Shown piece by piece: positions 3,804 through 54,757 of a stretch of 64,000 nucleotides of DNA (the stretch's first letter is position 1; each line of letters begins with the position of its first letter). Where the stretch lies: positions 620,001 to 684,000 of the forward strand of contig NC_135248.1 in assembly GCF_947623445.1 (NCBI RefSeq), read 5' to 3'. The position numbers and the translations under genes were made by a program. The notes beneath the pieces are model-generated. The model did no database searches. It was not told the origin of the DNA and saw nothing but the letters and a program-made list of their open reading frames with translations. The DNA comes from Clavelina lepadiformis. Lineage: Eukaryota; Chordata; Ascidiacea; Aplousobranchia; Clavelinidae.

Positions 3804-4062
3804 TCCTATTTTAAGACTTGTCTGGAAAAAGTGCTTTCTCTAGTTTTAGAACTTGTCGTGAAATTGAAGAAAACCCCTAGTTTTCAGATTTGTCAACAAA
3901 TTAGGGAAAATCCCTAGTTTTAAGACTTGTCGAGAAATTAGGGAAAACCCCTAGTTTTCAGATTTGTCAACAAATTAGGGAAAACCCCTAGTTTTCAGAT
4001 TTGTCGAGAAATGAGGGAAAACCCCTGTATTTCAGAATGTTTAGAAATTGGGTACATTCCTT
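3804..4062 (+). repeat. 37-base minisatellite, about six to seven units
   Basis: Successive TAGTTTT starts lie at 3841, 3878, 3915, 3952 and 3989, with a degenerate unit at 4026 and another weaker unit before 3841. The spacing is exactly 37 bases. The unit core is CTAGTTTTCAGATTTGTC followed by a GGGAAAACCC-type segment. Two alternating variants (CAACAAA and GAGAAA) suggest that pairs of units may have expanded together. Confidence 0.85.
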
Positions 4063-17484: not shown

Positions 17485-18480
17485 TTTGAGGGAGGCATAA
17501 GATGACCGTCGCAAAAACAAACAAAGTTTCCCCTAAAGTACAACTTCCAGTTTATTTTCAATCCTACTCTTGTTTCCTATAATCTGGAATTGAAGTGCTG
17601 AAATGCAATGAGAAAAAGGTCTATATTTAATGCTATGTCAGTATCTCCTCTTTAGCGTATAGGCTAGAGTAGACTACCGGAATACAAATCAGATGCATTA
17701 ATCGCAATTCTTTGGTGCTGCCTGCTTGGAAAGCCTAGGCCTACATTCTGAATTTATTTCCTCAGTTCGAGGATAAAAATTATGATATTATACATTTTTA
17801 CCTTTCCTTGCAGCTAAATTTTCCAATCAGGCTATCGCTACCAACAATGCAACAAACAAAGACTCAAAATCTGACAATTCGTTACAAACAAACTTGAGTT
17901 AATCCCTAAAGCACTACACGCTACTGCATCACTACGCACTGTGCTGGGATTAGTTTTGCTAAACTTGTCTCACGAGCTCCATTCAGCTACCAGTGTTGCC
18001 AAATCAAAAACATAAAAACGCCAACCTTCTTGAGAAAAAGAATTAAATCATTTTGCAGTATATAATTATCAAATTAACTGAAGAGATTGATTTAAAATAA
18101 AAAGACTTATTAAACTATTATTTTTGCAATAGTAAACCAATTAAGCTATTATTTTGAAACTCTTTAAAAGGAGATCTCAGAGATATTCAAGATCATTAAT
18201 TAATCTTATTCGTGTCACGTTGCATCTTATTATCTCCGACCCAATTGTCCTTGCGCTAAGTCTTTAGCAAGGCGCAGTTGTGACCTCATAACTTCATTGT
18301 TCGGAATCCAGGTTATTGTTTTGTGTCGTTCTATTTCTTTCCCACGATCTTGCCCCATTTTGGCAGAAAAAGATTTTAAAGCAAAACCATTGTTCCGACA
18401 TCTTGTTATCAAGTGTACTAGACCAATTTGCAAGTCCATATATTATGACTAGTTCCTACTTGAGTAAAACTTCAAGATAT
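17485..18480. other. WDR82 upstream region and spacer
   Basis: It contains the presumed WDR82 promoter and untranslated leader. No open frame with family features is present. The far end marks the outer limit of the inverted-repeat left arm. Confidence 0.5.
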
Positions 18481-19550
18481 TTTCGTGCCAAAGTTGCTGA
18501 CGACATTTGAATAAATCGACTTCTCCAATTCTAATTATGCAGTAGCTTCGGAAGACGCTGTTTCCATTGTCTTCCAAGTTGTGATGTTGTAATTACGCAT
18601 CTGTTATTTGCCGTCCAATGATTGCACAACGTTATGTTTACTATAAATCATTCTCAGCTCACAATATAATTATTATCCACCTGAACAATAGTTGATTGAC
18701 AACTAGTCCGACAACATGTTTCTCCATTGCATCATGTGATTGCCGAATTCAAACAAACCCCTGTGTGATTAACGAGTTAATGTGTTAACATGTCTTTTGC
18801 ACGATTAATAACCGCATTGTTGTTTTCAAATAGATAGTGTTGATTGATCCTTTTCTTATTTTCATTTAAGATTCCATTGTTTGAGTTAACACAATAAACC
18901 CTTCAAACCAAACTAATTCCTGTTTATTAAGAGCATCGCGACCCAGCATAGAACTTTGCTTCTTTATTGCATCCTTCAGCGTGTATATAATATACCATTG
19001 CATGCTATCATTTAGCAGTAGTAATAAGAATTTTGAAGAGGAAGTTCTTATCTGTTCTAAAATCAATCTCCTCGAGAAGTTGAGTAATGCAAGGAGATGC
19101 GCTTGTCGAAAATTAGGTTATTAAAACTCTTTTTACTTTTAAAATTATATATTTCCAATCTAACAGGTTGGGCCAACAGCCGAAAGATCTCTATTTCACA
19201 ATCTGACAACTTTCATTGCTGAGTAAATTTATGCGATGCCAATTGCCAGCCCAACCACTCTGCCGTCTCTATTTTACTTGAAGGTGCTCACAACTTTGAA
19301 CTCAAGAATTATATATTTGTGAAGTCACAGAACACACAGCGTTATTGCTATATTGAACAGTGTCGTCACAATTAAAAATAATGCATCACAAAAGGCTCAA
19401 AGCTCTAAAAATAAAATAAAATAAAATTTGGAATTTGATCACAGCGTCATCCAAGCAATGCTGGATTCCGACTTTTACACACTCGCTACGACATTCAACT
19501 GCTTGGCTCCGTCGCCAACTGTCAATCTTGTTCATATTCTGACGACATCA

Positions 19551-21712
19551 TCACGACACAATGCAGCTTTTCTCTTCAGGTAGGTTGCCATCTTGTCTTT
19601 CTATTTCCATTATGATTCCGTCGAAGATAGCCTTGACGTCCTGAAATGTACAATATAGGTAACATAATTGCAACTTTGACGTCACTGTCCCAAACAAAAG
19701 CATTAACGTATTCAGATGAAATAAAATTCAGGTAGAATTATTTTAAAGAGCAAAAAATATTTTTGAATAGAAATTTGGCATTACCGCGAAGCATAGTTTA
19801 ATGCTTTAATGAGACGGTAATTTGCTGAGTCAGCAGGAAACTGAGCACTTTTTCTCACAACTCTCACCGAGTCTTCCTTTGCCGAGGTCTCGAGAAATAT
19901 CACTTTCCAGCTTTGAGCAAGTTCTCTTCCCTCCTCTGTGCTCACTTTCCTCTCACGATCGAGATCAGTTTTGTTCCCGACGAGGACGATGGGGATCCTA
20001 GACATAAATCTTGTCATCAGTTTTATCTTACAAGTGACCGGTAAACACAACACAGCTGTCAGGATAAAATCATGTTAAAATATCCGGTCAAATTTACTTG
20101 ATTCTTCCGAGCACGTCCATGAGTTTGTCGTGGATCACTTTCACGACCTCGAAGCTGAAAAAAGTGAATACAAAGATGAATTTGGAGGCAACATTGACAG
20201 CCTGGCACCGGTGTGTTGCCATAGGTAACCACCCCCACTCTAAATTAAGAGTTGAAGTTTTGATTGATTTGATATCACAATTAAACCTATAATTAAGTTT
20301 CACCGTGTTTAAGTTTTCTACAATCAACCCACGGTGATAGTGACGTGCATACCAGCTAACAAAACCAGCACAAAAGGTATGGTTCTTGCTGATATGGTGC
20401 CAGTTTCGAAAAGTTTATTTAGCCAGTTTATATATTCTTATAAAAACGACCACGTGTATGTATATTATGGCATGAGGTATATTTGAATCTCACTTGCACA
20501 CACATTGTGATGTAACAATAACACAGTCCTGAAAGAACAATCGCCAAAAGAAAGTTGCTCACCTTTTAACTGATGTGACCGAGTAGACAAGAACGTAACC
20601 ATAGACATCCAATGAACATGAAACGGGGAAGAGAGAATAATCTTCCTGGAATGACACAAAATTAATTCAAACTTTATCGCAACTGACCTATGTTGTGTAA
20701 CTTGGTGTTTAAATACGAAGCCAGCATTGAAATATTTAGCCGTCGTTTGTAAAGCAAAGTGACGTCATAATTTCAAATTTAAGTAGAAGCTAACTGCCAG
20801 GGCGATCGCCTCCTTAATTTTTCTTTAGATTAGAATTTTAACAATTTCAAAATTAAATGTCTTCCGTCATGGCTAAGTAATTTTTAATTAACAAGATTTC
20901 ATAAAAAGTTTGATCAAAACAAGAGGCGAATATTCCAAACAATCAGACACTGCCAGGACAAAGCTGAAAGTAATTTCATGAATTCTCGTCCTCACCTGCC
21001 CAGCCGTATCAACGATGTCAAGTTCGTAATTTTGCTCGTTCAATGTGTATTTTTTATAGTAAGCTGCAAAAAACAATTTTAATCTTGAATAAGTTTTAAA
21101 TTTAAGCTTAATTTGTGATCTATGAGGAACTCATAAGAAAGATATGATTTCGACATATCAAGACGATTGTAACAAATGTAAAATTCATAATCAAAGAAGT
21201 GCACAAAGAATATTTTTACTTACTGTCTTCAATTGTAGGGCGGTATGACGTCACAAACTCATTCTTTACAAACTGGACAGTGATGGCTGTTTTTCCTGAA
21301 GAGAATAAATATTTTTATTCAAAAAGCTAAAATTACACAAAAATAGGAAAACGTTAAAACAAGAATGAGGAACATATTTTAGCCAGGAAAGCAGATGGCA
21401 TCAAAATTTTGCTTTTATGCAAATAAAAAAAAATATGTCAGAATCGAAACTTGCGCAAAGACGAGCTCAGTAACAGAGATTGGAGCAATTCAACGTCATC
21501 GCCGAGTTTAAGTCGCGCAAAGACTTTCCTCGGTCCAACAATAAATGATGCGATGCACCGCCGTTCATATGGAAGGCTGAGAAGTGCGACTCGTTCTGTT
21601 CGTAAAATGACCAGCAAGGCGACATAAAATTAAAATATCAACCTTCTGAAGCTCATTTACCTGCTGTCCGGTATCCCAAGATGGCCAGTTTTCTTCGACG
21701 AGTTGGCGCCAT
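19551..21712 (-). CDS. Rheb-like small GTPase A (divergent effector loop)
   Basis: Seven exons on the minus strand: 21712-21661, 21295-21224, 21063-20996, 20645-20563, 20154-20098, 19997-19868 and 19640-19551. All phases agree and give 183 residues; human RHEB has 184 and the numbering is the same through the switch regions. Motifs present: P-loop G-Y-R-T-A-G-K-T (13-20), Arg15 kept, D-T-A-G-Q (60-64), N-K-T-D, E-T-S-A-K and a C-terminal CAAX box C-I-V-S for farnesylation. The effector loop reads Y-R-P-T-I-E-D-T-Y-Y where RHEB has Y-D-P-T-I-E-N-T-F-T, so positions 36, 41, 43 and 44 differ. RHEB-GTP activates mTORC1 on lysosomes. Whether this copy does so is open. Its mirror twin is at 25063-27136. 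Confidence 0.9.
20155..20222 (-). other. Conserved intronic block next to Rheb-A exon 5
   Basis: The 68 bases just before the exon 5 acceptor, including GTTGCCTCCAAATTCATC and GTATTCACTTTTTTCAG, are nearly the same in Rheb-B (26546-26613) and Rheb-C (30454-30521). This is about as similar as the exon itself. It may be a splicing or transcriptional element, or a tail of gene conversion. Confidence 0.55.
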
Positions 21713-22221
21713 TGAGCTTATCTTCGATGACGTCAGTGTAATCAGATTGTTCAAAATTTACAACGAGTTGCAGAAATCTGACAAAAATACAAAAAAATGA
21801 GAAAATAATGAAATACTTTTATAAAAAGTTAACGCGTGGGAGGAATATCCGCACGAACTTAGCAGTGAAACAAGATTTCTCTCAAGTCCATTTTAATTTA
21901 TTATTTTATTATTTTATTTTATTTTATTTATTGCCGCAGCAAATTCCTAATTGAGAGTAATGATGACAAATACAAAATGACAAAAGCGACACCACTCGTT
22001 CATAGACATCTTACATATACAACTTACACCCACCATTTAAGCTTAGTATTTAAGTATAGCAAGCCACCTCTGAGGTTGACTTGTATTGAGTTGCCACTGA
22101 CCTGTCCGCACACTCATCATCTCACTAATGCGGCCACAACCTGACCCTGTGCTCGGTTAAGACCTGTGAGTGGCTTTTTTATCTCTCAGCAAACAAAAGG
22201 CCTCCACCTGCCTTTTATGCA

Positions 22222-22720
22222 TTATCTCTGTCTTCCTAATCTGCACAATAGCAGGTTAAGTGCAATCAAAGTCACGATTGATGTTGACGGAACTTGCAGG
22301 AATTTGTAGGAAATATCAACCTGGTAATTAATGGTCGAAACATCATCAGGATCTGGTATGGAAATGATTTTTGCTCTGAAGTTTGTTTTTATACAACCCT
22401 CGATCACTCCTCCCAACATTTCGCTTCCAAATTGCTTAAAAATGTCAAAGTGTTTTCAACACTGCAGTGAATATATGTATCATGACGTAGTTCACTTCGC
22501 TAAACATTGTGCTTCGAGGATGTTTGAAACGTCAGACTTTGGTTTCGTTCGTGTCTTGCGCCCGCGTTTTATAATATCTTAATTCTTTCTCCCGTTTGTT
22601 CGTCAATCAGAGCAAAAATATCTGAATTATTGCGAAACTTTCCCTCAAAACATTCACCTTGTTTTTGGAGACGACTTTCCCGACCTGAAACTAATTCCTT
22701 GCAGTTACGAATGAACCTGA
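22222..22720. promoter_or_regulatory. Nearly identical upstream block of Rheb-A
   Basis: By eye only about three or four bases differ over roughly 500 between this block and its mirror at 24057-24557. That is closer than the coding exons of the two Rheb copies. It lies 0.5-1 kb before the Rheb-A ATG and contains ATGACGTAGTTC near 22483. A shared promoter or enhancer, or a recent conversion tract, would explain this. Confidence 0.45.
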
Positions 22721-22910
22721 ATCCGCATTAAACGCGGCAGCAGGAAAACTTTTCACCAAAAAAGCAGATCGCGGCCTCTATACCAAGCAATAGATTTCAC
22801 GAGAGAGGGCAAGATATGATCCAAGTGCAACGACCAAGGAGCGATAATGAGGTAACAATAGTGATTGTTGCGATCGTTTGGAACGCACGATAAGGCTGAT
22901 GAAAAATCGC

Positions 22911-23839
22911 CCGCCCCATCGCAACAAAGACCCCCGCAACTTGTCTTTTTTCCTGCAAATAGCATCCAGCGTGTTGCAGCTATATCGGGAGAGATCGCGA
23001 GGTCGCGACACCAGAAACCGCCGCTGTCTTTGCATGAGCTTGGTGAAGCAAGATGTGGTCATTGTGACGCGTAAATAACAACAATAGTGACGTAAAGTCT
23101 TCACCAAGCAAAGAATATACAACTACACAGCAGGTGTTAACAATTAATCAAGGAACACAACTATACTATTAACAAGCAATCTCAATGCATTTTCAGAAAT
23201 TACTTTTTAAATGTCCATTGTAAAAAGAAAACTTTGCAAAGTGCAGCCACATTATACTTGTACAAATTGCTATAAGTATAATTGGATTTTCATCCACCAA
23301 AAAACAGAGTTCTTAAAGAGCAAATAATTATTGCCAGTTTATTACCAAAAAATTACTTACACAAAACAACGATATGATAGCGAGACCATCTACATTGTTG
23401 AAACAAGTCTTCACTTCTGCACATGCGCGATGAAACATGCGAGGTTGGATCGTTGTCAAGACAACTTGGAAACCAAAGCTCACTCGCAATATGGCACAAA
23501 ATACAAAAACTCAACAGACAGGTAAAATACTGAAGAAATGTAGAATTGGCCACGATGACAGGATTCACAAAGTGCTGCTGATTAAACAGTGACAGGGTGA
23601 CAAAATCTTCATTGTCGGATTGAAAAATTTGCACTAGGTAAACTCGGCGATGATTTCTAATCGCTCGAACCCAGATCACCGAACTTGTTTTTGTGCAAGT
23701 TCAAACAGAAGCTCGCTTTGTCTGATTGCGAGTCCGTCCATCTAATCGTCCCTATCAAGTCGATAATTACATCCGTAAAAAAACAAACAAATTCGCGCAA
23801 ATTGCGCGTTCTCTCTGCTGGAGGTTTTTGATTAACTTT
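22911..23839. other. Spacer at the centre of the inverted repeat
   Basis: This unique sequence separates the two arms. Open frames such as that at 23353-23679 on the minus strand have no family features. Nothing else is recognisable. Confidence 0.6.
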
Positions 23840-24056
23840 GCACTAGCCTTATCGCGCGTTCCAAAAGATCGCAACAATCGCCATTGTCACCTCATTATCG
23901 CTCCTTGGTCGTTGCACTTGGATCATGTCTTGCACTCTCGCATCATATCTTGAAAGTAAGCGCTGAATTGCGAAGAATTACGTGAAGTCTGTTGCTTGGT
24001 TGACCGTGATCTCTTTTTTTTGTTGGAAAGTTTTCCTGCTGCTGCGTTTAATGCGG

Positions 24057-24557
24057 ATTCAGGTTCATTCGTAACTGCAAGGAATTAGTTTCAAGTCGGG
24101 AAAGTCGTCTTCAAAAACAAGGTGAATGTTTTGAGGGAAAGTTTCGCAATAATTCAGATATTTTTGCTCTGATTGACGAACAAACGGGAGAAAGAATTAA
24201 GATATTATAAAACGCGGGCGCAAGACACGAACGAAACCAAAGTCTGACGTTTCAAACATCCTCGAAGCACAATGTTTAGCGAAGTGAACTACGTCATGAT
24301 ACATATATTCACTGCAGTGTTGAAAACACTTTGACATTTTTAAGCAATTTGGAAGCGAAATGTTGGGAGGAGTGATCGAGGGTTGTATAAAAACAAACTT
24401 CAGAGCAAAAATCATTTCCATACCAGATCCTGATGATGTTTCGACCATTAATTACCAGGTTGATATTTCCTACAAATTCCTGCAAGTTCCGTCAACATCA
24501 ATCGTGACTTTGATTGCACTTAACCTGCTATTGTGCAGATTAGGAAGACAGAGATAA
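24057..24557. promoter_or_regulatory. Nearly identical upstream block of Rheb-B
   Basis: Mirror copy of 22222-22720, ending about 0.5 kb before the Rheb-B ATG. Two overlapping frames on opposite strands (83 and 65 residues) translate identically in both arms only because the DNA is almost unchanged; they carry no domain and are not called as genes. Confidence 0.45.
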
Positions 24558-25062
24558 TGCATAAAAGGCAGGTGGAGGCCTTTTGTTTGCTGAGAGATGA
24601 AAAAGCCACTCACAGGTCTTAACCGAGCACAGGGTCAGGTTGTGGCCGCATTAGTGAGATGACGAGTGTAAGGACAGGTCAGTGGCAACTCAATACAAGT
24701 CAACCTCAGAGGTGGCTTGCTATACTTAAATACTAAGCTTAAATGGTGGGTGTAAGTTGTATATGTAAGATGTCTATGAACGAGTGGTGTCGCTTTTGTC
24801 ATTTTGTATTTGTCATCATTACTCTCAATTAGGAATTTGCTGCGGCAATAAATAACATGAAATAATAACTCACTAAATTAAAATGGACTTGAGAGAAATC
24901 TTGTTTCACTGCTAAATTCGTGCGGATATTCCTCCCACGCATTAACTTTTTATAAAAGTATTTCATTATTTTCTAATTTTTTTGTATTTTTTGTCAGATT
25001 TCTGCGACTCGTTGTAAATTTTGAACAATCTGATTACACTGACATCATCGAAGATAAGCTCA

Positions 25063-27136
25063 ATGGCGTCAACTCGTTATAGAAAACTGGCCATCTTGGG
25101 ATACCGGACAGCAGGTAAAAGAGCTTCAGAAGGTTGATATTTTAATTTTTATGTCGCCTTGCTGGTCATTTTACGAACAGAACGAGTCGCACTTCTCAGC
25201 CTTCCATATGAACGGCGGTGCATCGCATCATTTATTGTTGGACCGAGGAAAGTCTTTGCGCGACTTAAACTCGGCGATGACGTTGAATTGCTCCAATCTC
25301 TGTTACTGAGCTCGTCTTTGCGCAAGTTTCGATTCTGACATATTTTTTTTTATTTGCATAAAAGCAAAATTTTGATGCCATCTGCTAAAATATGTTCCTC
25401 ATTCTTGTTTTAACGTTTTCCTATTTTTGTGTAATTTTAGCTTTTTGAATAAAAATATTTATTCTCTTCAGGAAAAACAGCCATCACTATCCAGTTTGTA
25501 AAGAATGAGTTTGTGACGTCATACCGCCCTACAATTGAAGACAGTAAGTAAAAATATTCTTTGTGCACTTCTTTGAATATGAATTTTACATTTGTTACAA
25601 TCGTCTTGATATGTCGAAATCATATCTTTCTTATGAGGACCTCATAGCTCACAAATTAAGCTTAAATTTAAAACTTATTCATGATTAAAATTGTTTTTTG
25701 CAGCTTACTATAAAAAGTACACATTGAACGAGCAAAATTACGAACTTGACATCGTTGATACGGCTGGGCAGGTGAGGACGAGAATCTATGAAATTACTTT
25801 CAGCTTTGTCTTGGCAATGTCTGATTGTTTGGAATATTCGCTTCTTGTTTTGATCAAACTTTTTATGAAATCTTGTTAATTAAAAATTACTTAGCCATGA
25901 CGCAAGACATTTAATTTTGAAATTGTTAAAATTCTAATCTAAAGAAAAATTAAGGAGGCGATCGCCCTGGCAGTTAGCTTCTACTTAAATTTTAAATTAT
26001 GACGTCACTTTGCTTTACAAACGACGGCTAAATATTTCAATGTTGGCTTCGTATTTAAACACCAAGTTACACAACATAGGTCAGTTGCGAAAAAGTTTGA
26101 ATTAATTTTGTGTCAATCCAGGAAGATTATTCTCTCTTCCCCGTTTCATGTTCATTGGATGTCTATGGTTACGTTCTTGTCTACTCGGTCACATCAGTTA
26201 AAAGGTGAGCAACTTTCTTTTGGCGATTGTTCTTTTCAGGACTGTGTTATTGTTACATCACAATGTGTGTGCAAGTGAAATTCAAATATACCTCATGCCA
26301 TAATATACATACACGTGGTCGTTTTTATAAGAATATATAAACTGGCTAAATAAACTTTTCGAAACTGGCACCATATCAGCAAGAACCATACCTTTTGTGC
26401 TGGTTTTGTTAGCTGGTATGCACGTCACTATCACCGTGGGTTGATGTACAAAAACTTAAACATGGTGAAACTTAATTATAGGTTTAATTGTGATATCAAA
26501 TCAATCAAAGCCGCAACTCTTAATTTAGCGTGGGGGTGGTTACCTATGGCAACACACCGGTGCCAGGTTGTCAATGTTGCCTCCAAATTCATCTTTGTAT
26601 TCACTTTTTTCAGCTTCGAGGTCGTAAAAGTGATCCACGACGAACTCATGGACGTGCTCGGAAGAATCAAGTAAATTTGACCGGATATTTTAACATGATT
26701 TTATCCTAACAGCTGTGTTGTGTTTATCGGTCACTTGTAAGATAAAACTGATGACAAGATTTATGTCTAGGATCCCCATCGTCCTCGTCGGGAACAAAAC
26801 TGATCTCGATCGTGAGAGGAAAGTGAGCACAGAGGAGGGAAGAGAACTTGCTCAAAGCTGGAACGCGATATTTCTCGAGACCTCGGCAAAGGAAGACTCG
26901 GTGAGAGTTGTGAGAAAAAGTGCTCAGTTTCCTGCTGACTCAGCAAATTATAGTTTAAAGTTTTGTTTCATCTGAATACGTTAATGCTTTTGTTTGGAAC
27001 AGTGACGTCAAAGTTGCAATTATGTTACTTATATTGTACATTTCAGGACGTCAAGGCTATCATCGACGGAATCATAAAGGAAATAGAAAAACAAGATGGC
27101 GACCTACCCGAAGAGAAAAGTTGCATTGTGTCGTGA
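25063..27136 (+). CDS. Rheb-like small GTPase B (divergent effector loop)
   Basis: Seven exons on the plus strand: 25063-25114, 25472-25543, 25704-25771, 26122-26204, 26614-26670, 26771-26900 and 27047-27136. All phases agree and give 183 residues ending in the CAAX box C-I-V-S. It shares the unusual loop Y-R-P-T-I-E-D-T-Y-Y with copy A. By eye the two coding sequences differ at 16 of 552 bases, 12 changing the protein (10 residues, for example Pro3/Ser, Arg6/Tyr, a Lys/Glu in the H-D-[KE]-L stretch of exon 5, and six near the C-terminal helix). All GTP-binding motifs are intact. The gene is head to head with copy A, with about 3.35 kb between the start codons. Confidence 0.9.
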
Positions 27137-27605
27137 TGATGACGTCAGAATATGAACAAGATTGACAGTTGGCAACGGAGCCAAGCAGTTGAATATCGTA
27201 GCGAGCGTGTAAAAGTCGGAATCCAGCATTGCTGGGATGACGCTGTGATCAAATTCCAAATTTTATTTTATTTTTAGAGCTTTTTGCCTTTTGTGATGCA
27301 GTATTTTTAATTGTGACGACACTATACAATGTAAAAATAACGCTGTGCCTTCTATGACCTCACAATAATAAGTCTTAAGTTCAAAGTTGTGAGGGCCTTC
27401 GAGTAAAATAGAGACGGCAGAGTGGTTGGGCTGGCATCGCATAAGTTTGTTCAGCAGTGAAAGTTGTCAGATTGTGAAATAGAGATCTTTCGGCTGTTGG
27501 CCCAACCTGTTAGAATGGAAACCAAGTTGCATTAAGCTACTGCTTAATGAGAATTGGAGAAGTCGACTTCGTTCATTCAAGTGTAGTCAGCAACTTAGGA
27601 ACAAT

Positions 27606-29235
27606 AATCTGGTCTAAATGGGTCCATTGTTAAAGTCGCGTGAAATGGGAAAAAGTTATACCTAGCATTTATTTAACTTGTGAAAATACAAAAAAATGCG
27701 CCAAGTATAATGACAAGAGTTAAAGCGACGAAAAACTAACACTTTGTGTCTTGCGGAAATCTGTCATTATTTCAACGACCGCATGTTGGCGCCAGAATAT
27801 CGCATAAAATGAAAGTGCAACTTAAAAGTTTAAGAATCAGAAAAATTTACAATTTTGTTGTTCATTTTCTGTTGTTGAATACAACCGAAGTTATAATAAA
27901 AAGATAATTACCAGAAGTAGTGACACTTCCTGTCAGCTATAGCGACATATTTGAAATCAACAACAACAGAACTTGCAAGATCGAAGCTGTAACTAAAGTT
28001 GTCCCTTATATTACGTCATAAAATGTTTTTACCGCCATCCAATCATCGTCGTCTTGTTAATATTGTCCGAGTATTTACAACATGCTTACGTATAAGCTGA
28101 TACAAAGTCCGACGAAATCGGCAATGTTTTGTTGCAAAAGTAGGCCAGCATGTGAATGTCCTGGTAGTCGGCAAGAAAGTACTCCGGGAATATTATCAGG
28201 GCAAGCTCTACTTACTGCGCCTACCACTAGCTATGCCTCATTATAATTTATCTTACTCTACAGTAGTGCCATAAACCTTAGTTAAGGATTCCAAAGATTT
28301 TACGCCACAAAAACTGATTATCAATGCCAGATTGCGATGGAATGTGACACAACACGTGTTTTGTGGTAGCACTTCGCATGCTTATTTGTCATGTTAAGTT
28401 AATTCATTATGCCATTACATAACTCAGTCTGTGTTACAGACGTGTTACAAAGACGTTCAAACAATTGGATTAAAATTGAATGTCAAACCAAAACATACTC
28501 GCTTTATTTAAAAATTCCCAATTTACTGCATACAATTTTGAAACGCCGTTTTATTCGCCTAACCTTCTATTTGCATTATGGTATAATCACTGGGTCGGGA
28601 GCAGTCCTATAGTTGGCTAATACCTTTGACAAATGCGGAGACATGTGAAGGTAAATTGCAAATCGTAGCCAACATTCCCCAAACAGCTTGCACACTTTTG
28701 CCAATTTGGTTGAGGTTTTGCATTGGTGCTAGTAATAGCCCAAGCATTGAGCCTATGACGCTTGTATACCGGCACACGTTGGTCTTATTCTTGATCTGAT
28801 ATCAGAATTCTTATCCTCGGACCGAAAAAAGCGGTTTGGGAATTAAGAGATGCCAAAAACGTAAATCACCTTGTTCTGAAGTCAAAATGGCAGCGGCCGA
28901 ATAAACTTCAATGTCACAAATGTTCTGGCCTTTCACCAACTCTGCCAGTTGCTTGCAGTGCCGCTACTTTTCCAACTGCTCCTTGCTCAAACCAACACTC
29001 AACTTTGAACTCAGGAACTGTGATTGTGACGTCACAGTAAGCACAACATCGATCGCTTCGCAGATATCGTCACACTTACGATTAACAGACAAAGAAAAAC
29101 TCAAATGAAAAAATATGGGAATATGATCACATATATCACAACACCGATACATGCTAACTTTTGCACGCTCGCTACGACATTCAACCGCGCGGTTCGGTCG
29201 CCAACTGTCAATTACGCAATTTTGTGACGTCATCA
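27606..29235. other. Spacer between inverted repeat and Rheb-C
   Basis: Short open frames at 28409-28612 and 28911-29108 have no recognisable features. The end near 29160-29235 is the Rheb-C 3' untranslated region; the phrase CTCGCTACGACATTCAAC there is shared with the 3' flanks of the other two Rheb genes. Confidence 0.5.
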
Positions 29236-32169
29236 TCACGACACTATGCATTTCTTCTCTTCAGGTAGGTTGCCGTCTTGTCTCTCGATTTCCATAATGA
29301 CTCCTTTAAAGATGGCCTGGACGTCCTGAAATACGCAAAGGTTAAGCAAGTGTAGCAGCTTCAAGCCGCAAAGCTTTTTTTATGACGCAATAATCGCAAT
29401 TAGTGTGCGTCATCTCGTATAAACTCACATTAAAAACTGAAATGTTTCTGACAATCATATGCCCCGTTCCAAAGTATAGCGTATACACCAGATAGACACA
29501 AACTTCACTTTTCAGAAGTCGATAAAAAGGGATACATGATTATATGCAACATATCAGCTTTTAATTAGAATATACATTAACTTGGCTGCATCAGTTGCGG
29601 CCAACTGGTGCTTGAAGATATCAGGGCTGCCGACTTAACATAACACAAATGTGATTTGACCTGCAACAGGGGAGCAAGAATATCTTAAATAAGACAAGTA
29701 CATCAACGGTGGCAACTCATGAAAAGCTGATGACAAATGTAAATGTTTGAAAGAATAACTACAAGTTGTTCAGATGCAGCTGGATCGTATAGGTTCGTTG
29801 ATGTCTATGTTGTCTAACTGTGCTTTTATCTGGTCAAATTCTATGGCAGAGCTATTTCAAAGCAAAATAAACTTGGACAAAATTTTTAAATTTATTTTAG
29901 TAGAATTTTTTAGAATTGAAACCAGAAACCACCGACTCTGAATCAACACTGTCTGACTTCATCAAAGAAATAGACTCTTACCAGGTTATGTTTTGCCGAA
30001 GTCTCGAGAAATATCGCGTTCCAGGTTTGAGCAAGTTTTTGTCCCTCCTCCGTGCTCACTTTCCTCTCAAGATGAAGATCCGTTTTGTTCCCGACGAGGA
30101 CGATGGGGATCCTGGAGAAACAACTCATCAATTTATCATTCTAGAAAAAAGCAGCTCTCGAGAAGAACCACTTCACATCATAAACCTTAGCATTATGGGG
30201 AGCAATCTGCAAATTTTCATTAATTCTGGCTGAAAAAAGAAATGGCTTTTGACCAAGACAGCTTCCTATTTAGACGGCAATACTTGCCTATACAAATACA
30301 TGTTCACAAGCCAGATGGTAACTATGACACAAGTGACCGGCAAACACAACACAGCTGTCAAAATAAAATCATGTTAAAATGTGTTGGAGTACTCACTTGA
30401 TTCTTCCAACCATGTCCAGCAGTTTGTCGTGGATTACTTTCACGACCTCGAAGCTTAAAAAAGTGAATACAAAGATGAATTCGGAGGCAACATTGACAAC
30501 CTGGCACTGATGTGTTGCCATAAATGTGCACCCCACACTGGGCCTGTGGTTGAATTTGAACCCCAGTGATATTAACAGCTCAACCGGCTTGTTCAGTATT
30601 AAATCATGTAAAAACCGCGCAACGTTTGATTTTGTTTTATAAAATTTCAAGCCCAGCTTACTCAGCTTGCACATTTGTCCGATGAAAACATTTTGCAAAT
30701 ATTTTCTAGAAATTTTTGTGATCTTGTCCAAGGACATCGAAGCAAGTTCACATAAACATGGATGAATCTCGAAAACTGCAAATCTTAGTCTTCTCTAATC
30801 GCACTTTTAGTCAAACTAAGTTTTAAATCAAAATGTAGCACGATGGCCAAGTGGACAGATCATGACATTAAGCTCATTTGTCTCTCGATCCTTTAAATAC
30901 CAAGTTAAACACCTTTTAGCTGACGTGACAGAGTAGACCAGGATGTAGCCATGGATGTCCAAGGAGTAAGAATCAGGAAAAAGGGAATATTCATCCTGAA
31001 ATAAAAAAAGAGTTGAAAAGCCACAGATGTTTTGTTTATGCCAACATCTAAATATTTACTTTTCCACTTGATAGTATTCATCCCAAAAAATATTCCACTT
31101 TAAAATTTAAGATTCAATCTAAACCTCTTGGTAATGAATGAATTGGTAATTTTTGTCATTAATTATATTTATGACTTCATAAAAAAAGCAGCTGAATCAA
31201 TAAACCGAAGCAAAAGGAAGCGTTTATTTCTCATCTTTCACCTGTCCGGCAGTATCAACAATATGAAGTCGATATTCCTGGTTGTTTAATTTGAATTGTC
31301 GCGTGAAAGCTGCAAGTATGAATTCAGCAGGGAAGTGCGTGTTTAAACGTAAAGATAATGCCATTGAGCATCAATTACAAGTCTAACACAAGCACGGAGT
31401 CAAATTTATGAATGAACAGCAGACGGAGCTATTTGACTCACTGTTTTCGATGGTCGGGTCGTAGGATTCAACAAACTGATTGTCAACAAACTGAATAGTA
31501 ATGGATGATTTTCCTAAAGACAAGAAAGTTTATTATTAGAAGATCATCTCAATGTAGTGGCTGACGACAACATCATCATGTGTGTAAGAAGTGTCATAGA
31601 CTTGTGGTGGTCGCCGTAGCAACACACGACGACTTTGCAGTCACCAGACGGACATCTCACATTAAAAGCTGTGTTTGCGCTGATTGATTTAACGATGGCG
31701 TACATGGTACTTGCCCGACAATATGTGTCTGCGTACCAGCCTTCAACATACGAGTATTGCAACACCGCAATAAAAATCAACCTCAGCAAATCGTTTCACT
31801 TGGGACACTTTAGTGCTAGCCGGGAAAAAACATGCGTCGTCACAAATCCTTGAGTGCCGCAGACTGATGCCGAAAGGAATGTTGTTAGATAGGAAAATTT
31901 TAATAATAATAAAAGAATACTTTTTTTGACAACTCATTTTATACATTGAACTACTCCCGTTGATAAAACAATCTTAGTTATAAGCACAGACAAAATGTGA
32001 TGTTGGTAAATAAGAGCATTTAATAAACTAGTTTTCAAGCAGCCACAAGAAATAAACACAATATATGTGTTATATTGATGATAGTGAAAAATACTATACA
32101 TTACAAATCTCACGCACCTACTGACCGATAACCCATGATGGCCAGCTTCCTGTCACGAGGTGGCGCCAT
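29236..32169 (-). CDS. RHEB: RHEB, conventional copy (mTORC1-activating GTPase)
   Basis: Seven exons on the minus strand: 32169-32118, 31513-31442, 31309-31242, 30995-30913, 30453-30397, 30111-29982 and 29325-29236. All phases agree and give 183 residues. Motifs match human RHEB closely: G-Y-R-S-V-G-K-S-S (13-21), effector loop [32 protein letters not shown] and the CAAX box C-I-V-S. RHEB-GTP binds and activates mTORC1 and is switched off by TSC2. This copy keeps the standard effector residues and is therefore the best candidate for the ancestral function. Intron positions equal those of copies A and B. The G5 region reads S-A-K-H-N-L instead of S-A-K-E-N-Q. Confidence 0.95.
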
Positions 32170-32414
32170 GGAGCTTCTCTACAACAATATCACCAGAACA
32201 TAAATATTCGTAAAAACACAGCAAGTTTTAGAAACCCGAGAGATAGAAGGAATCGAAATTGATTAAACCCTAAGAATGTTGTGTCTATTCTGATGGAGAC
32301 AAAAACTTCATTGTCTTCGTAAAAAATTGATTATGGCAAAAGTAAATATCTAAGACCATTTAAAGACATCTTGACCAGCCAAAGGTATTCTTCATTATAA
32401 AGACAGAAATCACT

Positions 32415-32515
32415 CATAATTAGGTTTAGTTTGCTATGTTACAACATTTAAGTTAGGAAACTGTGAAATTTAGCTTTGAACGCACACTTTTTCCAGTGAA
32501 ATAGTGGTAACCAAA
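32415..32515 (+). repeat. Dispersed repeat family 1, partial copy 3
   Basis: It matches the second half of the copy at 1891-2105: ACAACATTTAAGTTAGGAAACTGTGAAA, here spaced over 32437-32470, then CCAGTGAAATAGTGGT. Same orientation as the other copies. Confidence 0.45.
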
Positions 32516-32585
32516 AGTTATACATAGAAGCAGGTTAGTCTATATTAAAATTCCGCCAACTTAAAAAAACAAAAATGTATGTATT

Positions 32586-33010
32586 AAGGATGTGCCGCGA
32601 GGAAGATTATTCGGGTTCGTGCGAATCCGAATATCATGAAAGTCGACATGAACGAATCCCGAATCTATTCGTATTAGAACCAAACAATAAAATTTCATTC
32701 AAAAGTTGTCAAGTCTTGTTTCTAAAATGACGTAATCGATAAACAAATCGCTTTCTTTCGAAAAATAGTGTTTAAAAAACGATGGAAAAAGCAAAATCGT
32801 TAGGAAAACGACCTTCATTGTAAGTACTGCTGACTCTAGTTTAGCTTTGTCGGGAAACTAGATCATCATTTTTTACGAAAGTCAGTAAATTTATAAGTAA
32901 TATTGTATTCGGGTTCGCCATTGTTGGTATTCGTGTTCGCCCGAATCTTCCATAAAGGCGATATTCGGCGAATCTATTCGGGTTTGGGTTTGTATCGGCC
33001 CATCCCTATT
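32586..33010. mobile_element. Probable DNA-transposon MITE with GGGATGGGCC-type ends
   Basis: The left end reads AGGATGTGCCGCGAG and the right end, on the other strand, AGGGATGGGCCGATAC. Both ends continue into inverted-repeat-rich phrases such as TATTCGGGTT and CCGAATATC. No target duplication is clear. The ends resemble those of several animal non-autonomous DNA elements, but the family is uncertain. Confidence 0.45.

Positions 33011-51412: not shown

Positions 51413-52785
<1,373 letters not shown>

Positions 52786-53677: not shown

Positions 53678-54757
<1,080 letters not shown>

Follow-up and report, generated by a model that had tools for sequence, protein, structure and literature searches.

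The Rheb-mTORC1 pathway of animals is usually served by one or two Rheb genes. In the ascidian Clavelina lepadiformis, three Rheb-like genes (A, B and C hereafter) are clustered on one contig, and two of them, A and B, occupy the opposite arms of an inverted repeat. This raises the question of whether such a gene-bearing palindrome is a genuine feature of the genome and, if so, how it arose and what has kept its arms alike. We analyzed it within a window of 64,000 nucleotides (C9:620001-684000, where C9 is contig NC_135248.1), to which all positions below refer unless prefixed with C9, and searched the 209-Mb genome (95 contigs) for related sequences. We consider it probable, with some room for doubt, that the pair arose through an inverted duplication of the A/B ancestor, which followed an older gene duplication, and that its arms have since been partly homogenised by gene conversion.

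Anatomy of the inverted repeat

Self-BLAST, a repeat search of the window and global alignment recover a gene-bearing inverted repeat in the assembly, and together with the gene models they bear out the claim of an earlier note on this DNA that a structure of about 9 kb holds an intact gene in each arm. The left arm (18479-22899, minus strand), which carries gene A, spans 4421 bp, or 3833 bp without a repeat inserted in it, and the right arm (23843-27608, plus strand), which carries gene B, spans 3766 bp. In the global alignment the homology ends near 18479 and 27608 on the outer side and near 22899 and 23843 on the inner side, and the flanks beyond these borders do not align. By self-BLAST, 19818-22801 matches 26950-23981 at 97.2% over 2989 columns, 19152-19726 matches 27521-26961 at 91.3%, and 22803-22897 matches 23939-23845 at 92.6%. 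The arm pairs in the repeat search (n = 9) are collinear, and the match between the arms is far beyond chance. Setting aside the arms and the pairs formed with gene C, we found no inverted match longer than 91 bp, at E-values up to 1e-20, in 134 contiguous kb of the chromosome, a span insufficient for deriving a rate of palindromes in the genome. The centre between the arms (22900-23842), formerly described as a unique 0.93 kb, measures 943 bp and is single-copy with the exception of one dispersed element: parts of the interval at about 23589-23709 recur, over 64-124 bp, at 39 other genomic places (best 40 of 103 candidates).

The largest difference between the arms had been taken for a simple left-arm indel of about 595 bases; it is instead a dispersed genomic repeat of 588 bp (18550-19137), delimited by a genome search and by alignment against two copies. 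This sequence matches two genomic places over its full length at 82-83% and many others partly. The two aligned copies share a sharp common edge with the insert at 18550 and extend beyond 19137; these edges resemble what a truncated non-LTR element would show, and inspection of the alignment revealed no clear target-site duplication. With the insert left out, the alignment of the arms contains 13 gaps: about 81 bp in intron 6 of A that are missing from B (19729-19809), 40 extra bp in the right arm (23941-23980) and eleven others of 1-9 bp each. None of the 13 lies in coding sequence, an outcome with a chance probability of 0.12.

These differences bear on the possibility that the palindrome is an artefact of assembly, in which two haplotypes or a fold-back read were joined head to head. 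Alleles of an outbred ascidian may differ by 2-3%, and the overall divergence of the arms, likewise 2-3%, falls within that range. However, it rises to 7-13% at the ends of homology, the arms are further distinguished by the 588-bp repeat and the 81-bp insert, and a fold-back would yield near-identical arms. The 943-bp centre is crossed without a gap, the window as a whole containing no Ns, and, gene C exons and the dispersed repeat aside, no third copy of an arm appears among the best 40 of 458 candidates. Moreover, the assembly, kaClaLepa1.1, is described as a 117x HiFi assembly with a contig N50 of 8.3 Mb from which haplotypic duplicates were purged (PMC10884593). We accordingly hold a misjoin to be highly improbable. 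A separate reading of 17500-32700 in terms of structured RNA or tRNA was rejected, as an Rfam gathering search gave no matches and ARAGORN no tRNA genes in this interval.

Three Rheb-like genes in a cluster

Gene A (19551-21712, minus strand) is composed of exons at 21712-21661, 21295-21224, 21063-20996, 20645-20563, 20154-20098, 19997-19868 and 19640-19551. Its counterpart in the right arm, gene B (25063-27136, plus strand), has exons at 25063-25114, 25472-25543, 25704-25771, 26122-26204, 26614-26670, 26771-26900 and 27047-27136. The third gene, C, is also complete (29236-32169, minus strand), with exons at 32169-32118, 31513-31442, 31309-31242, 30995-30913, 30453-30397, 30111-29982 and 29325-29236. 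Each model encodes 183 amino acids with the CAAX box CIVS at the end, and the exon lengths (52, 72, 68, 83, 57, 130 and 90 nt) are common to all three. A and B additionally have identical splice positions, GT-AG introns and intact frames, in keeping with the earlier description of seven exons alike in both arms. They are arranged head to head with their start codons 3.35 kb apart, and C lies 2.1 kb past B and is convergent with it, so that the three Rheb-like genes previously reported within about 13 kb are all represented by intact models.

Two minor features concern the region of exon 5. The acceptor of this exon in gene C is AAG (30454-30455), and in A and B it is CAG. In A (20155-20223), B (26545-26613) and C (30454-30522), which are similar here, intron 4 is open at its 3' end in frame with exon 5, such that a peptide like MATHxCQxVNVASxFIFVFTF precedes SFEVV; this may mark an alternative start of the exon or be the trace of a conversion tract.

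With B as the query, the best PDB match is Rheb (221 bits), followed by RhebL1 (178 bits) and, at 127 bits, the next Ras-family protein; the entries matched are human Rheb 9ed4, 6bcu and 3t5g and RhebL1 3oes. Scores against PF00071 are 160-168 bits across the three proteins. Over residues 3-179, identity to human Rheb is 99/177 for A and 101/177 for B (56-57%) and 115/177 for C (65%), C being the nearest of the three and A about level with B. The G motifs (P-loop, DTAGQ, NKTD and ETSAK) are intact in all translations, and the P-loop, GYRTAGKT in A and B and GYRSVGKS in C, includes the Arg at position 15 (GYR rather than Gly) that is diagnostic for Rheb. The three proteins resemble Rheb and RhebL1 in length, G motifs, Arg15 and CAAX end, and to judge from their sequences they are most likely farnesylated Rheb-type GTPases. 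A and B depart from human Rheb in having R36, D41 and E65; the corresponding residues are D, N and D in both human Rheb and C.

Screening the 209-Mb genome with the proteins of B (39 matches) and C (33 matches) detected no other Rheb-like locus. We judged the other matches by identity (all those listed) and by P-loop (five of them). The best match outside the cluster reaches 51% identity, over 35 residues. Eight non-cluster stretches were translated; five of them extend to the P-loop, where their sequences are GGGGVGKS, GDTGVGKT, GDSGVGKS (twice) and GASSTGKT, with GYR in none of these five Ras-like loci. Candidate Rheb loci outside the cluster were thus rejected, on identities of at most 51% and on the lack of GYR in the five P-loops.

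Uneven divergence of the arms and probable gene conversion

The arms mismatch at 115 of 3644 aligned columns, a count that omits right-arm positions 23940-24016, 26950-26964 and 27513-27534, where the alignment beside indels is unsure. The comparison of the core of the arms with their ends further omits 26965-27136 (the end of intron 6 and exon 7; 9/172 differ). Here, non-coding mismatches amount to 50/2468 (2.0%) in the core and 46/542 (8.5%) in the ends, a 4.2-fold difference (Fisher P=8e-12). Because the mismatches cluster, we also merged changes up to 10 bp apart into single events, on which the excess is 2.7-fold (coding sequence included, 38/2930 in the core and 19/542 in the ends; P=7e-4). 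A concentration of divergence at the ends of homology is what conversion predicts. The longest identical runs are 487 and 367 bases, of which the former is improbably long for the whole arm on merged events (P=0.0045). A scan located the block of lowest non-coding divergence at 24120-25571 (plus strand), with 9 events in 1325 bases as against 45 in 1767 elsewhere; it survives permutation (P=0.003) and overlaps the 487-base run (24112-24598), and we tentatively read it as the most recent conversion tract.

These patterns have to be weighed against one recent inverted duplication without any conversion, in which the uneven divergence would be due to chance, local mutation rate or constraint. The 2% divergence of the core, taken alone, fits such a single event. 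On merged events, dispersion gives P=0.06 for the arm as a whole and is not significant in the core alone (P=0.30), where the longest run (P=0.037) and the three longest runs (P=0.02) are also weaker evidence than the measures above. The A-B coding sequence likewise holds no significant changepoint (P=0.13 and 0.05). What a single event leaves unaccounted for is the excess at the ends by either count, together with the quiet block picked out by the scan. Moreover, a search of 9 kb surrounding C gave no convincing match for the 5' flank and intron 1 within that block (best E 0.03), whereas the exon 5 region, as a control, matches there at E 2.6e-63; since the quiet block has no recognisable counterpart near C, long-term constraint is a weak alternative. 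We therefore regard a history free of conversion as unlikely. The earlier remark that palindromes of this size are usually short-lived or kept by conversion finds support in this conversion-like pattern, seen in the quiet block and in the contrast between ends and core, but not in the dispersion within the core.

It is also conceivable that the inverted arrangement is itself under selection, for instance through shared regulation of a divergent pair, which would be compatible with conversion. The head-to-head orientation of A and B with their start codons at the above distance, as well as the position of the longest identical run in the 5' flank, would suit this idea, but the 5' flank showed no conservation with C, the CpG ratio of 1.00-1.06 in the centre and flanks, against 0.93 for the window, indicates no island, and conversion accounts for the same pattern without selection. 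Such a selected arrangement seems to us very unlikely as the explanation.

Under the preferred scenario of inverted duplication with partial homogenisation, a Rheb gene would first have been duplicated at the DNA level, along with its introns and some of its 3' flank, to give C and the A/B ancestor. An inverted copy of this ancestor would then have arisen on the far side of a 0.9-kb spacer, yielding A and B head to head. The arms would subsequently have exchanged sequence by ectopic gene conversion, so that the core stayed near 2% divergence and the ends of homology moved apart to 7-13%. The dispersed repeat would have entered the left arm after the inverted duplication.

A possible older exchange with gene C

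The relationship of the pair to gene C also varies along its length. Among codons that specify the same amino acid in A and C, 29/57 differ before coding nt 265 and 15/75 from nt 265 onward (maximum chi-square P=0.005; B-C behaves similarly, P=0.006). The maximum chi-square changepoint lies at coding nt 264-265, close to the boundary between exons 4 and 5 (nt 275), with P of 0.005-0.007 for A-C and B-C, in a test that allows for the choice of point and on two pairs that are not independent of each other. Synonymous differences between A and C stand at 31/48 sites in exons 2-4, 17/58 in exons 5-7 and 9/41 in exons 5-6. In self-BLAST, a segment of C comprising exon 5 and about 70 bp of each adjoining intron (30329-30522, minus strand) is 86-88% identical to A and B, and constitutes a candidate old conversion tract; exons 2-4 of C gave no self-BLAST match to A or B. 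The pattern is not cleanly two-part, in that exon 1 is also fairly similar (dS 0.43-0.52), with exon 7 in between (dS 0.73-0.88). Together, these observations suggest that C and the A/B ancestor exchanged much of the 3' half, from exon 5 onward; this would have been an earlier round of homogenisation, preceding that between the arms.

Divergence of the pair and predicted roles

The coding sequences of A and B differ at 16/552 bases, compared with 50/2468 in the non-coding core (P=0.20), and their dN/dS of 0.68 is not distinguishable from 1. Coding divergence is thus not below that of the non-coding core, and neither measure gives evidence of continued constraint on both copies, the intact frames notwithstanding. 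Using human Rheb as the outgroup, unique changes number 23 in A versus 7 in C in one comparison and 22 in B versus 8 in C in the other; by these counts, the A/B lineage evolved faster than C.

The changes on the A/B stem include D36R, N41D and D65E. Consequently, switch I reads YRPTIED in A and B, and YDPTIEN in C as in human Rheb. All three proteins carry Leu at positions 69 and 76, where human Rheb has Ile, and retain Y35, Y67 and D77. According to a review, D36A, P37A and T38A lowered mTORC1 activation in one assay; another study is cited there as finding little effect of switch I changes and a loss with Y67A/I69A and I76A/D77A, and Asp65 is said to aid hydrolysis (PMC10855792). Of the three genes, we infer C to be the likeliest to serve as the ordinary mTORC1 activator. 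A more speculative possibility, which we entertain with considerable reservation, is that A and B form a divergent subfamily whose switch I has been rewired (D36R and N41D, with E65 close to the catalytic site) and which has ceased to behave like ordinary Rheb; C would retain that function, and the palindrome, together with conversion, would hold the pair together during the change.

Relation to known mirror-image gene pairs

The A/B pair belongs among the known mirror-image gene pairs subject to conversion and is not a new kind of system. First, in Drosophila, Hsp70Aa/Ab, Hsp70Ba/Bb and Amy-p/Amy-d are described as palindromic pairs homogenised by ectopic gene conversion (PMC3924832). They share with the Clavelina pair closely linked paralogs, mirror-image orientation and, probably, homogenisation by conversion, but the genes differ, and the Drosophila case is built on shared polymorphism and species comparison whereas ours draws on divergence patterns in one assembly. 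Second, C. elegans hsp16-1/hsp16-48 is likewise reported as a short inverted repeat whose arms carry genes and whose single-copy centre is small (416 bp), and conversion has been proposed for it; its modules are 100% identical and hold two genes each, whereas the Clavelina arms are 2-13% diverged and hold one gene each (PMC3966223). Third, the human Y palindromes, such as P6 and P8, are similar in having gene-containing arms, a spacer and, on our reading of the Clavelina pair, arm-to-arm conversion, but the arms of P8 measure 38 kb and the Y palindromes are >99.9% alike and lie in a non-recombining region, the Clavelina palindrome being smaller and more diverged (PMC3723533, PMC6790999). The accessible part of the Clavelina genome paper names no sex-chromosome role for chromosome 9 (PMC10884593). 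Judging by titles and the opening lines of abstracts in the accessible literature on tunicate, ascidian and invertebrate Rheb, Clavelina duplication and Ciona conversion, we found no publication on the A/B/C locus, and one such paper mentions Clavelina once in its available part, for orthology (PMC12373286). If the above history is correct, this small tunicate gene palindrome would offer one place in which to follow conversion, repeat insertion and functional divergence, and would allow one to ask whether palindromic orientation preserves duplicates beyond sex chromosomes.

Other repeats in and near the window

Several further repeats lie at a distance from the cluster. A 403-bp direct repeat, with 100% identical copies about 4.2 kb apart (C9:615526-615928 and C9:619756-620158), straddles the start of the window, its second copy extending up to window position 158. 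Another direct repeat, of 243 bp and 97.5% identity (51982-52224 and 54221-54463), is accompanied by a weaker pair at 75% (52642-52775 and 54611-54744). Finally, a short tandem array occupies 3805-4052, with self-match offsets of 37 and 74 bp.
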